A stretch of 64,000 nucleotides of DNA from Ignavibacteria bacterium (GTDB lineage Bacteria; Bacteroidota; Ignavibacteria; Kapaibacteriales; UBA961), in NCBI GenBank assembly GCA_016873735.1, contig VGWD01000008.1, positions 1 through 64,000 of the forward strand, read 5' to 3'. Shown piece by piece: positions 22,864 through 29,666 of the stretch. Position numbers and translations under genes: made by a program. Positions within the stretch are counted from its first letter, which is position 1. The number at the start of each line of letters is the position of its first letter. The notes below the pieces were generated by a model. It did no database searches. It worked only from the letters and a program-made list of their open reading frames with translations, and had not been told where the DNA came from.

Positions 22864-24546
22864 TTAAGGTTTTGGTTTTGACAAGGGTGACTCAAGCAAT
22901 GGTGGTTTCGCTTGGGACTTTTGTTTCTTTTGAACTTCAATAGTTTTCACATATAATGAAGGTGAGCTTGCCGAAACGGGAACACCACCTGATTCAGCAC
23001 CACATACTCCATTGAAAATCCCGATATCATGTGAGGCAGCAACAATATTATTGAATGTTGTCAGAGGAGTTCCTATCAAATCAACCCCTCTAACCAACTC
23101 ATCGGGTCTGCCATCGGTATATATCTTGTACACCACCAACGGCTGCACATTAAATGCATTTGGTATCGTACGTGCTGTGAATGTAAAACCACCTGATATC
23201 TCAACAAAGTAGAGACCATATTCTTTATTCTGAGCTTTACATTCATTTCTAAGCAATGTTCGCAAAGAATCAAATGCAACTGACTGCGATGCCAAAACAA
23301 GGAGATTGGATTGTCTGGCTACAGGCCTAAGACCTGCTTGCCTTCGCCCATGCCCATTAGATACAGGAAATGATTCAATCGGAGAGCGGCTCATAAGAAA
23401 ATTCTTGAATATTCCTTTTTCAACGGCAATAACTTTTTCAGCTTTTACGCCTTCATCATCATATGCATAGTAACCGACGATATCCTGACCATTCAAGGTC
23501 TTCAAACCGGGATCAAAGACCACATCGATAAAATCGGGTAGAATTTTTTTATTCAAGAATGATTTGAAAGTCTGGGAAGAATTGGGGTCTTTTTGTCGAT
23601 GCCCTTCTACTCTGTGACCGAATATCTCATGAAAAAAGACACCTGATGCAGCGCCTGAAAGGATTGCCGGCCCTGAATAGGTTTCAGCCAGCGGTGCAAC
23701 ACGTAATTGCCCCAATGTTTGAATCATGCGCCGAATATCCTGCGCGATGATTTCTTCAGAAGGAAGATTCTCTGGTTGAAATGCAAAATAACTTGAAAAC
23801 AAAGGAAGGGTCATCCCATCATCTGCTTTTGTTGAAGCCGATGCAAACATTCTTACATTGGGCTCACTTTGTAGAATCACAGTTCCTTCAGAACTTACGA
23901 AGTACTTTGTGATGATATCAGCTTGAAAATACACTTCACCGGTATAAATCTCTGGATCCACTGCAAACAATGCAGACAATTGCTTTATTTTTTTCAGCCA
24001 TTGCAAAGAGTCTATAATAAATGACTGATCAGGAGCGATGGATTCAATTGGTTGTTGCCTGGAAAAGTCAGCCGAACTATCTTCTTCTTTAACCTTGACT
24101 GCGCGATTGGTCAATACTTTCCCATATCGTTCAACTGCTTTCTTATAAAGTTTATCCGTCGCATTCCACATTACAGAACGCAATGCCTTTTCATCATTGG
24201 TCATAGGTAGCTCAATTCCTCGACCTCCCCCTCCAAATTCAAAGCGACTTCCTCTAATCGTGTGCGTATTATCCAATTCGTGATTGCCAACTCGAATGTC
24301 TATATCCAAAATTCGAGACAACGTTTGTTCACTACTCTTTACATTACCAAAAGCTGCATTCATGCGAATGGTTTTTGTTTCAGTAACGGCATAAGACAAA
24401 AAGTAAGGAGGTGTTGATTGATTTGCAAGACCATCCATAGTCCTTTTCATTTCATTCTTCATCGCATTGAGCAATGGATATTCAAGGGCATCGATTGAAA
24501 CCGATGTGAACATCAGCATGATTAGAATTGCAAATACTTTGATCAT
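22864..24546 (-). CDS. Exported TldD/PmbA-family metalloprotease
   Basis: The product has 560 residues. The first 20 residues form a clear signal peptide (hydrophobic core followed by SIDA). The TldD metal site is seen as FFHEIFGHRVEGH near residue 310, and FLMSRSP and NGHGRRQ, typical of TldD, follow. The C-terminus carries GAESGGVPVSASSPSLYVK and a Lys/Gln/Pro-rich tail. Classical TldD is cytosolic and works with TldE on peptides such as microcin B17; here the signal peptide points to the periplasm and no TldE partner is adjacent. The gene is between ccmF and the regulatory-domain protein gene, with gaps of 5 and 12 bases. Confidence 0.85.
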   Translation of the reverse strand: MIKVFAILIMLMFTSVSIDALEYPLLNAMKNEMKRTMDGLANQSTPPYFLSYAVTETKTIRMNAAFGNVKSSEQTLSRILDIDIRVGNHELDNTHTIRGSRFEFGGGGRGIELPMTNDEKALRSVMWNATDKLYKKAVERYGKVLTNRAVKVKEEDSSADFSRQQPIESIAPDQSFIIDSLQWLKKIKQLSALFAVDPEIYTGEVYFQADIITKYFVSSEGTVILQSEPNVRMFASASTKADDGMTLPLFSSYFAFQPENLPSEEIIAQDIRRMIQTLGQLRVAPLAETYSGPAILSGAASGVFFHEIFGHRVEGHRQKDPNSSQTFKSFLNKKILPDFIDVVFDPGLKTLNGQDIVGYYAYDDEGVKAEKVIAVEKGIFKNFLMSRSPIESFPVSNGHGRRQAGLRPVARQSNLLVLASQSVAFDSLRTLLRNECKAQNKEYGLYFVEISGGFTFTARTIPNAFNVQPLVVYKIYTDGRPDELVRGVDLIGTPLTTFNNIVAASHDIGIFNGVCGAESGGVPVSASSPSLYVKTIEVQKKQKSQAKPPLLESPLSKPKP

Positions 24547-25988: not shown

Positions 25989-26924
25989 TCAAACTGGGGA
26001 TTCAGAATTGCTTTTTTTGGGGAAGAGCAATGAAATAACTACAGAGGCAAGCAAGATCACCAAGACAAAAAATAGGGCTAATTCAATTGGGATTTTGTAA
26101 ATACCACTGATGATCATTTTTACACCGATAAAGCTCAAGATAACCGCAAGACCATAATTGAGATAATGGAATAACCCTACAACTCCCGCCAAGGCAAAGT
26201 ATAATGAACGTAATCCCAGAATTGCAAAAATGTTGGATGTGTAGACAATAAAGGGATCCGGAGAGACTGCCAAAACCGCTGGAATGGAATCAAGTGCAAA
26301 AACCAAGTCGGTTGTTTCAACCAAGGCAAGAACCATAAACAAAGGTGTAACAAATGTATACCCCATTTTGCGTACAATGAATTTGTCTTCGTGATAGTTT
26401 TTTGAAACACCAAAAAAACGACGCACCAATTTCAATGTCCAACTTGATTCAGGATTGAACTCAACATCATCTTTTGAGAAAATCAGTTTGAATCCCGTGA
26501 AAACAAGAAATGCTCCCAGGATATAAATGATGGAATGAAACTCCGCAAGAATGGCAACACCGCCAATGATGAATAATGCCCGCATAATCAATGCACCCAA
26601 TACACCCCAAAACAACACCTTGTGTTGATATTTTTCAGGTACTTTGAAATAACTGAATATCGCAAGGAAAACAAAGAGATTGTCTACGCTGAGTGACTTT
26701 TCTATGACATAAGCAGTCACAAACTCAGTGGCTTGTACATTGGATTTGTAAAACCAGATACCCACACCAAACAAACAGGCAAGCCCTATCCAAAATGCAC
26801 TCCACCACAAAGCTTCCTTCACCGAAATAACATGTGCTTTTTTGTGAAAAACACCTATGTCAAGCGCAAGCATGATGAGTATGAAAGTGTGGAAGCTAAT
26901 CCACAAGAGGAGTTCATTAGACAT
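25989..26924 (-). CDS. TerC/Alx-family integral membrane protein
   Basis: The product is a 311-residue protein with about nine hydrophobic helices. Family landmarks are VIEKSLSVDNLFVFLAIF, KVLFWGVLGALIMRA, ETTDLVFALDSIPAVLA and FAILGLRSLYFAL, whose Asp/Glu/Asn residues are thought to handle metal ions. Known members export manganese or metallate exported proteins, and the old name comes from tellurite resistance. The gene is 89 bases upstream of the thioredoxin-like gene on the same strand, and 58 bases after the exported PLP enzyme. Confidence 0.92.
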   Translation of the reverse strand: MSNELLLWISFHTFILIMLALDIGVFHKKAHVISVKEALWWSAFWIGLACLFGVGIWFYKSNVQATEFVTAYVIEKSLSVDNLFVFLAIFSYFKVPEKYQHKVLFWGVLGALIMRALFIIGGVAILAEFHSIIYILGAFLVFTGFKLIFSKDDVEFNPESSWTLKLVRRFFGVSKNYHEDKFIVRKMGYTFVTPLFMVLALVETTDLVFALDSIPAVLAVSPDPFIVYTSNIFAILGLRSLYFALAGVVGLFHYLNYGLAVILSFIGVKMIISGIYKIPIELALFFVLVILLASVVISLLFPKKSNSESPV

Positions 26925-26982: not shown

Positions 26983-28260
26983 TCATCCCTTCAATCCTTT
27001 CACCCGTCCTTTCAAAATAGAAAGCAAGACATCTGCAAAATAATCAATTTCGCCTTCTGAAATGTAAATGTTTGGCGTAATTCTTATTCCATCAACATTT
27101 GCATATTTGATGGGTGTTGTTATGATACGATGTGTGGAAAACAGGTACTCGCCTATTTTACCGTGATCAAATCCCTCGAAACAAAATACCATGAGCCCAC
27201 ACCATTGTTGTGGATCTTCAATGTTAGTCATGAAACTCACACCGGGCTCATTTTTGACTTTGGTAATCCAGCGCATATGCAATGAACGCAATCGTTCTGC
27301 CTTATTTGCTAAGCCGACACGGTCATTGAATGCCAAGGCCTCTGATATGGCATTATGTAATGCGGCGGGATGTGTTCCTATCTCTTCGAATTTTTTTATG
27401 GAAGCATCTTGATCAGGATTAGCTGCCATGAGTGGCCAAATTGCGGGGATTTTATCCTTGGCCACATAGAGCATTCCATTGCCAACCGGTGCATAAAGCC
27501 ACTTATGGAGCGAAGTACCGAAATAATCACATTGCAAATCACTCTGTGTAAATGGAAAATGTGCAAATGAATGCGCACCATCAACAATGCATTCTATACC
27601 CATTTCTTTGGCCATGAGGCAAATCTCTCTCACAGGAAAAATTTGTCCGGTGCAAAATGACACATGAGAAACATGAATGATCTTTGTGTTCTTAGTGATT
27701 GCTTTTTTGAAGGAGTTCACAATATCAGATGGATCCAAAACAGGCACTTTTATGGGTATTTTCTTTAAGATTATGCTATCGCGTCGTACTCTTTGCTCCC
27801 ATGCGGTAATCATTCTTGGATAATCCAACTCTGTTGTAAGAACTTCATCCCCTTTCTTTAGAGAGATACCCATTTGCAGGTGCTGCAAGCTCTCACTAGC
27901 ATTGCGAGTTATGGCTATTTCTTCATCACTTACGCCAAACAAGGAGGCAATACCTTGCCTTACACGCTCCAATCCAGGTTCTTGCTGTTGCCAAATATTC
28001 CTTGCCGGTGCTTGATTTGCATAATCCAATCCGGTATGCAATGCCTGCATAACCGATCTTGGGCTTGGGCTTACACCCCCATTATTCAGATTAATCATGG
28101 TTCTGTCCATAGGAAACTCCGTTCTGATGGATTGCCAGAAGTCATTATTAGACTTGGACTTAGACTCTTCAATCATTGGCACTTCGATAGAGGTAAGTGC
28201 TTGAAGTGGAGATGCAAGTAGAATGCTGCTTTTCAGCATCGTTCTTCGATTTATGCTCAT
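26983..28260 (-). CDS. Exported class V aminotransferase-fold PLP enzyme (isopenicillin-N-epimerase-like)
   Basis: The product has 425 residues. The start at 28260 is chosen because it begins a Tat-like signal (NRRTMLKSSILLASP); the open frame extends to 28467 but the extra part is not protein-like. The fold type I PLP core has TRNASESLQ, IVDGAHSFAHFPF and the Schiff-base Lys in FGTSLHKWLYAPVGNGML. The C-terminal domain includes GIRITPNIYISEGEID. Relatives include isopenicillin-N epimerase and cysteine desulfurase-like enzymes; the real substrate is unknown. It is divergent from a second enzyme with a Tat-like signal, an LD-carboxypeptidase. Export of a folded cofactor enzyme by Tat is plausible. 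Confidence 0.82.
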   Translation of the reverse strand: MSINRRTMLKSSILLASPLQALTSIEVPMIEESKSKSNNDFWQSIRTEFPMDRTMINLNNGGVSPSPRSVMQALHTGLDYANQAPARNIWQQQEPGLERVRQGIASLFGVSDEEIAITRNASESLQHLQMGISLKKGDEVLTTELDYPRMITAWEQRVRRDSIILKKIPIKVPVLDPSDIVNSFKKAITKNTKIIHVSHVSFCTGQIFPVREICLMAKEMGIECIVDGAHSFAHFPFTQSDLQCDYFGTSLHKWLYAPVGNGMLYVAKDKIPAIWPLMAANPDQDASIKKFEEIGTHPAALHNAISEALAFNDRVGLANKAERLRSLHMRWITKVKNEPGVSFMTNIEDPQQWCGLMVFCFEGFDHGKIGEYLFSTHRIITTPIKYANVDGIRITPNIYISEGEIDYFADVLLSILKGRVKGLKG

Positions 28261-28550
28261 AGAACCATCCAAATAGATCTGATTAACATTATGGCTGAAA
28301 TTATGAATAATTACTGTTTTGAACGCATTGAATTTCACATAGTCAGGGTTTTGTGGTAACACACGAATGATGATTTCGATAATCGGAGAAATCTCTCGTT
28401 CATAATTCACGGACAATAAAGGAATAATGCTGTGGATAACCTTGAATTTTCGTAATTTACAGACCATGGAAAGGTCTCTTTCAGGCCCTTATCCATTGGA
28501 TAGTGATCATGATTGTCATGAACTACCATTCATTGTCGGATGAGAGAAAA

Positions 28551-29666
28551 ATGAAAAGAAGAATATTTCTGCATAGCATAGGAGCTGGGCTTTCCGCTTT
28601 GGGATTTTCCAGCCTGGAGACTCGTGCCGGAAATGGCAGTAATGAATTTGTGAACACAACAGAATCAATCCTTGCGAATCCCGCTAAGAATGGAAGTGAT
28701 TTTATTTCCCTTTTGCCGCCCGCACTCAAGAAAGGTTCAACTATTGGAATAACTGCACCTGCAAGTGGAGTGGACAATGGAGAGATTCAAGAAGGCATTG
28801 CATTATTGAAAGCAATTGGATATTCGATTGTTTTGGGTAATACACTTACAAGAAAATACGGATATCTATCTGCTCCAGACACAGAAAGAGCTGCTGAATT
28901 CATGGAATTCGTCGAAAGACCCGACATAGACTGCATTCTATGTGCAAGGGGTGGTTATGGCGTAATGAGAATATTACCCATGCTCGATTTTGGCGTCATT
29001 CGATCAAATCCTAAAATTATCATTGGATATAGTGACATTACAGCATTATTGGTGGCAATCACCAAGCTAAGCAATGTGATCACATATCATGGTCCGGTTG
29101 CTTCATCCACATTCGACTCTTTCACTGTGGATTATTTCAAGAGGGCTTTATGCAAACCGGTATCTCTCGATACTATCCAATCAGGTACAGAAGAATTCAA
29201 ACCGATCACATTCAGTGATCCAAGGATGATCACATTGACTGATGGCGTTGCAAAAGGGCGTTTGACAGGTGGTAATTTGTCAATGATTGTTGCAACGCTC
29301 GGCACACCATATGAAATTGATACCAAGGATTCTTTATTGTTTTTGGAAGATATTGCCGAAGAGCCATATCGCATTGACAGAATGCTCACGCAATTATGGC
29401 TTGCAGGAAAATTACAGCAATGTTCTGGGATTATTCTTGGTCAATTCAAGAATTGCGAGGCGAAAAGAATCCCCGGATTCGAGGTTTCATTCTCTCTGCA
29501 GGAAGTATTGGAGTCGAGAATCACCTCACTCGGGATACCGGCTGTACATGGGCTTCCCATAGGACATGTAAAAAGCAAAATGACTATTCCATTAGGAGTC
29601 ATGGCTGAACTAAATGCCGCCGGCAAATCATTTACCATTTTGGAAAGTCCGGTTGCATTTTCATAA
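28551..29666 (+). CDS. LD-carboxypeptidase, peptidase family S66, with Tat-like signal
   Basis: The product has 371 residues. The start at 28551 gives MKRRIFLHSIGAGLSALGF, a twin-arginine-like signal. The LdcA core follows: IGITAPASG, ILCARGGYGVMRILP, the Ser nucleophile in IIGYSDITALL, TGGNLSMIVATLGTPYE, the Glu in LEDIAEEPYRIDRML and the His in GLPIGHVKSKMTIPLG. These form the Ser-Glu-His triad that removes the terminal D-Ala from tetrapeptide stems of peptidoglycan. E. coli LdcA is cytosolic and acts in recycling; this one appears exported, so it would act on wall or shed fragments in the periplasm. Confidence 0.88.
   Translation: MKRRIFLHSIGAGLSALGFSSLETRAGNGSNEFVNTTESILANPAKNGSDFISLLPPALKKGSTIGITAPASGVDNGEIQEGIALLKAIGYSIVLGNTLTRKYGYLSAPDTERAAEFMEFVERPDIDCILCARGGYGVMRILPMLDFGVIRSNPKIIIGYSDITALLVAITKLSNVITYHGPVASSTFDSFTVDYFKRALCKPVSLDTIQSGTEEFKPITFSDPRMITLTDGVAKGRLTGGNLSMIVATLGTPYEIDTKDSLLFLEDIAEEPYRIDRMLTQLWLAGKLQQCSGIILGQFKNCEAKRIPGFEVSFSLQEVLESRITSLGIPAVHGLPIGHVKSKMTIPLGVMAELNAAGKSFTILESPVAFS

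Follow-up and report, generated by a model that had tools for sequence, protein, structure and literature searches.

A predicted Tat-exported PLP enzyme beside an S66 carboxypeptidase in an Ignavibacteria bacterium belongs to a widespread family that recurrently adjoins exported RidA proteins

To our knowledge, PLP-dependent and enamine chemistry has been regarded as cytosolic, PvdN and PtaA being seen as oddities of pyoverdine-producing pseudomonads. PvdN and PtaA (periplasmic transaminase A) are Tat-exported periplasmic PLP enzymes whose cofactor is bound during export, and PtaA has been suggested to serve periplasmic pathways other than pyoverdine (PMC6206403). Enamine and imine products of PLP enzymes are hydrolysed by RidA (PMC4433059; PMC12172467). 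A comparative-genomics paper on the Rid proteins makes no mention of the periplasm (PMC4433059), and no description of exported Rid proteins was found in the literature that we searched. Here we examine a PLP enzyme gene and a divergent S66 LD-carboxypeptidase gene in a 64,000-nucleotide stretch of Ignavibacteria DNA (hereafter the window). A sequence-only reading of this pair had proposed an exported PLP enzyme. Such an enzyme is of a known kind, since PvdN and PtaA already cross by Tat with their cofactor (PMC6206403). The features discussed are as follows.

25989..26924, minus strand: TerC-family membrane protein gene, adjoining the PLP gene here and in the sister genus
26983..28260, minus strand: PLP gene, predicted Tat-exported fold type I PLP-dependent enzyme (Aminotran_5), 425 aa
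28261..28550, no strand: divergent intergenic region between the PLP and S66 genes, 290 bp
28551..29666, plus strand: S66 gene, predicted Tat-exported LdcA-type LD-carboxypeptidase, 371 aa
29699..34507, plus strand: large vWA-type secreted protein gene, adjoining the S66 gene here and in the sister genus

Both genes of the divergent pair are real, and their coordinates were confirmed. The PLP gene has its stop at 26983-26985 and its likeliest start at the ATG at 28258-28260 (MSINRRTMLK...), because starts in relatives lie immediately ahead of the RR motif; the mechanical ORF of 494 aa begins at 28467, and its upstream extension is absent from relatives. The S66 gene starts at the ATG at 28551, its protein beginning MKRRIFLHSIGAGLSALGFSS, and the mechanical ORF opens further upstream, at a GTG at 28503. 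Within the genus the 290-bp intergenic region shows little conservation except at the gene starts, and no convincing conserved regulatory element was found in the four genomes compared.

As a Tat signal we took a conserved N-terminal RR motif followed by a hydrophobic stretch, in a genome that encodes the Tat machinery. Both proteins show this, in agreement with the Tat-like signals that had been read from them before: the signal is MSINRRTMLKSSILLASPLQALT in the PLP protein and MKRRIFLHSIGAGLSALGFSS in the S66 protein, and the genome encodes TatC (E 4.5e-66) and two TatA/B genes. The arginine pair of the PLP protein (R5, R6) is invariant in 20 of 20 aligned orthologs of 36-94% identity while the rest of the signal is free to vary, and 77 of 80 PLP relatives from the genome collection have an RR pair close to the N-terminus. 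Among 24 aligned S66 sequences the first arginine is invariant and the second is present in at least 90%; RR was also found in 29 of the 30 S66 orthologs extracted, the exception (G019) having NRS. Because RR is invariant or nearly so across both sets of orthologs, its Tat character stands above chance. In the AlphaFold models of both proteins, confidence is high over the mature parts, and the signal regions are disordered. Predicted export via Tat is thus supported for the PLP and S66 proteins alike. Elsewhere in the window, a protein with a TldD/PmbA-family C-terminal domain (22864-24546, minus strand) has a hydrophobic N-terminal signal (MIKVFAILIMLMFTSVSIDAL) together with an HEIFGHRVEGH motif; TldD and PmbA of E. 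coli are cytosolic.

The PLP protein matches PF00266 (Aminotran_5; E 2e-37) with 129.5 bits, well over the Pfam gathering score of 21.5, and this match, together with the conserved PLP residues, bears out its earlier assignment to fold type I. Asp227 (VDGAHS), Lys253 (SLHKW) and Arg393 are invariant in the aligned orthologs; from family knowledge we take Lys253 to be the predicted PLP lysine and Arg393 to bind a carboxylate. Tyr147 stands where SufS and PvdN align a His that, from general knowledge of SufS, presumably stacks on PLP. Among solved structures, PvdN, SufS-type desulfurases, C-DES and Egt2 come closest. No curated NCBIfam family model reached its cut-off. The identities of PvdN (149 bits against an equivalog cut-off of 650) and SufS cysteine desulfurase (114.6 bits against 475, with no aligned Cys in the C-terminal loop) were rejected, and the score for EgtE C-S lyase was 51.2 bits against 400. 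Isopenicillin-N epimerase (CefD), to which the protein had earlier been related, has no entry among the NCBIfam or PDB matches listed for it. SufS and CsdA share the fold and the Aminotran_5 family with the window enzyme, which differs in its predicted export and in a C-terminal loop that lacks the catalytic Cys. The family is represented among the 80 genome-collection relatives by Acidobacteriota, Gemmatimonadota, Armatimonadota, KSB1 and Bacteroidota-type lineages, and 101 of the 395 genomes searched across the phylum carry it. By its sequence, the window protein is a member of a large, widespread and uncharacterised family of putatively Tat-exported Aminotran_5 proteins that spans several phyla.

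Among enzymes of solved structure, PvdN, which tailors pyoverdine in Pseudomonas (PDB 5i90/5hh9), offers the nearest comparison. PvdN, too, is a fold type I PLP enzyme with an HKWL lysine motif, it is fully exported to the periplasm by Tat, as is predicted for the window protein, it is the top solved relative by both sequence and profile (E 1.4e-45), and Foldseek gives a TM of 0.82 on 5i90. PtaA is similar in being a Tat-exported PLP enzyme, a likeness drawn from its description only (PMC6206403). The likeness to PvdN speaks for a PvdN- or PtaA-like enzyme that would tailor an exported peptide or siderophore-like metabolite by oxidative decarboxylation or transamination. However, identity in the structural match is 22%, the 149-bit score lies far under the PvdN cut-off, there is no pyoverdine locus and Tyr147 replaces the PvdN His. 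No biosynthetic cluster recurs among the PLP neighbours, and a family carried by 101 of the 395 phylum genomes searched is too broad for a single siderophore. We consider such tailoring unlikely.

An exported C-S lyase or cysteine-type beta-eliminase resembling C-DES or EgtE, which would release a thiol and 2-aminoacrylate, is indicated by significant profile matches to C-DES (3e-35), the Egt2 C-S lyase (2e-21) and the EgtE model, and the RidA partner found in relatives (see below) is compatible with release of 2-aminoacrylate. The scores are nevertheless well under the family cut-offs, as for EgtE (51 against 400), no sulfur-metabolism neighbour of the PLP gene was seen to recur, and this activity appears improbable.

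The S66 protein carries two S66 domains (PF02016 and PF17676, each E ~1e-38). Ser161, Glu266 and His339, which from knowledge of the S66 family we take to be the catalytic triad, are conserved across the 24 aligned sequences, and the family assignment stands. Both domains and the triad are shared with LdcA-type enzymes; unlike LdcA of the E. coli type, which is cytosolic, the window protein bears a Tat signal, and with 185 bits it falls below the E. coli-type LdcA equivalog cut-off of 378. Most likely, the exported protein would trim tetrapeptides in the periplasm. A second S66 paralog (G000:C10:12571-13494), 37% identical and with no evident signal peptide, is presumably a cytosolic recycling enzyme. 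Searching the literature for S66 enzymes that are exported yielded no useful information.

The sequence-only reading had suggested a shared pathway for D-amino acids or muropeptides, in which D-Ala freed by the exported S66 enzyme from tetrapeptides of the wall would be racemised, transaminated or degraded by the exported PLP enzyme. Both proteins are intact and bear export signals, and the divergent adjacency is retained in all four members of the genus able to show it (G000, G001, G002 and G004), down to 67-71% identity; in G005 and G006 one of the two genes lies at a contig end. However, the whole stretch from TldD to the vWA gene is syntenic across the genus (L062), and adjacency there therefore says little about selection. 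The genome-collection loci (L numbers) and the G-numbered genomes partly overlap, L062 appearing to be contig G001:C22. In the sister genus (g4) the PLP and S66 genes are on separate contigs while TerC-PLP and S66-vWA are each kept as separate blocks, and the PLP-S66 pair thus marks the seam where two older linkages meet. The sequence-only reading had itself taken missing co-occurrence among relatives as grounds to refute it, and outside the genus neither a conserved adjacency nor a co-occurrence signal was seen. The S66 gene adjoins the PLP gene in only one of the 80 genome-collection relatives, and that one is of the same genus; several family members (G007, G008, G010 and G012) carry S66 but lack a PLP ortholog; and within the order the Tat-exported S66 type occurs in 22/24 genomes with the PLP gene versus 33/37 without it (Fisher p=1). 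Because many of these relatives are metagenome-assembled, some neighbours are hidden by contig ends. Moreover, the nearest solved relatives of the PLP protein are PvdN, SufS and C-S lyases, and the hits included no D-amino-acid enzyme. Synteny and co-occurrence lead us to reject the S66 protein as a functional partner of the PLP enzyme, the shared pathway is unsupported, and the D-Ala route is highly improbable. Our best explanation, which we hold as a whole with about even confidence, takes the two as independent exported genes of a housekeeping type that meet at a block seam in one genus.

A different partner emerged from clustering the neighbours of the 80 loci, in which RidA lipoproteins adjoin the PLP gene in several phyla. 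Phylum-wide, a RidA gene is adjacent by coordinates in at least 15 of the 101 PLP-carrying genomes, as the fetched flanks confirm. Altogether RidA adjoins the PLP gene in 23 of 164 distinct relatives, the other 141 having no adjacent RidA. In the 23 loci it lies nearly always within 300 bp, upstream or downstream, and on the same strand save for one divergent case; with several kilobases searched per locus, no RidA was found more than 409 bp away in the fetched flanks. The partner proteins match PF01042, and TIGR00004 above its cut-off. Nearly all of them keep the PAR motif and, unlike RidA/Rid imine hydrolases, carry a lipobox or Sec signal. At one Terriglobia locus (L071, 5263-5978) two tandem RidA genes immediately precede the PLP gene; one has a Sec-like signal, which the other apparently lacks.

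Placing the RidA label on the PLP tree takes 14 changes, of which supported branches force at least 11, so the association arose or persisted repeatedly. Within the order, an exported RidA of the partner type is present in 11/24 genomes with the PLP gene and 0/37 without it (p=6e-6, from raw genome counts that ignore kinship); a conservative count that includes every exported or ambiguous RidA in the latter gives 11/24 versus 5/37 (p=0.008, kinship again ignored). Its presence varies inside families f2, f3 and f4. Exported RidAs were also noticed at L178 and, in a different subclass (FSNPPTMSQPTAYSH), at L226, L227 and L231, in genomes that lack the PLP ortholog. A search of the window genome found two RidAs, both without a signal, and the genus likewise has only cytosolic RidAs; the module is therefore partial in this organism. 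Other neighbours of the PLP gene recur within single lineages: an LhgO-like FAD oxidase (PF01266) directly downstream at eight loci of families f43/f46 (L313, L316, L319, L322, L327, L335, L338 and L345), TerC in f1, and M20 and M28 peptidases in f35. Being lineage-limited, the LhgO-like, TerC and M20/M28 neighbours were set aside for function.

Since RidA hydrolyses enamines and imines, release of such a product by the exported PLP enzyme is the simplest reading. From the export signals, families, conservation and linkage observed above, we infer the following chemistry and substrates. The PLP protein would fold with PLP in the cytoplasm and then cross by Tat. Once in the periplasm, it would most likely use elimination or oxidative deamination to turn an amino acid or an amino-bearing small molecule into an enamine or imine. 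An exported RidA-type hydrolase encoded by the adjacent gene would, in many relatives, turn this product into an oxo acid and ammonia; in the window organism, which has no exported RidA, the product may hydrolyse spontaneously or be handled otherwise. The S66 protein would remove the terminal D-residue of tetrapeptides in the periplasm, independently of the PLP enzyme. Release of an enamine or imine is favoured by the conserved PLP active site and by the lack of the desulfurase Cys in the SufS alignment. A RidA partner does not, however, fix the reaction type, and RidA also guards against stray 2-aminoacrylate. Independent PLP and S66 proteins, with enamine or imine release by the PLP enzyme in the periplasm and an exported RidA partner in relatives, make up the explanation to which we give even weight.

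Somewhat more tentatively, the Tat-exported PLP enzyme and the exported RidA lipoprotein may form a periplasmic enamine/imine module in several phyla, composed of a PLP deaminase or eliminase and a detoxifying hydrolase, of which the window enzyme would be a stand-alone member. The predicted Tat-exported PLP family occurs in about one quarter of the sampled genomes of the phylum, repeatedly with an exported RidA. This pairing implies that many environmental bacteria may produce reactive imines beyond their inner membrane, and the RidA partner renders the function of an uncharacterised PLP enzyme testable.
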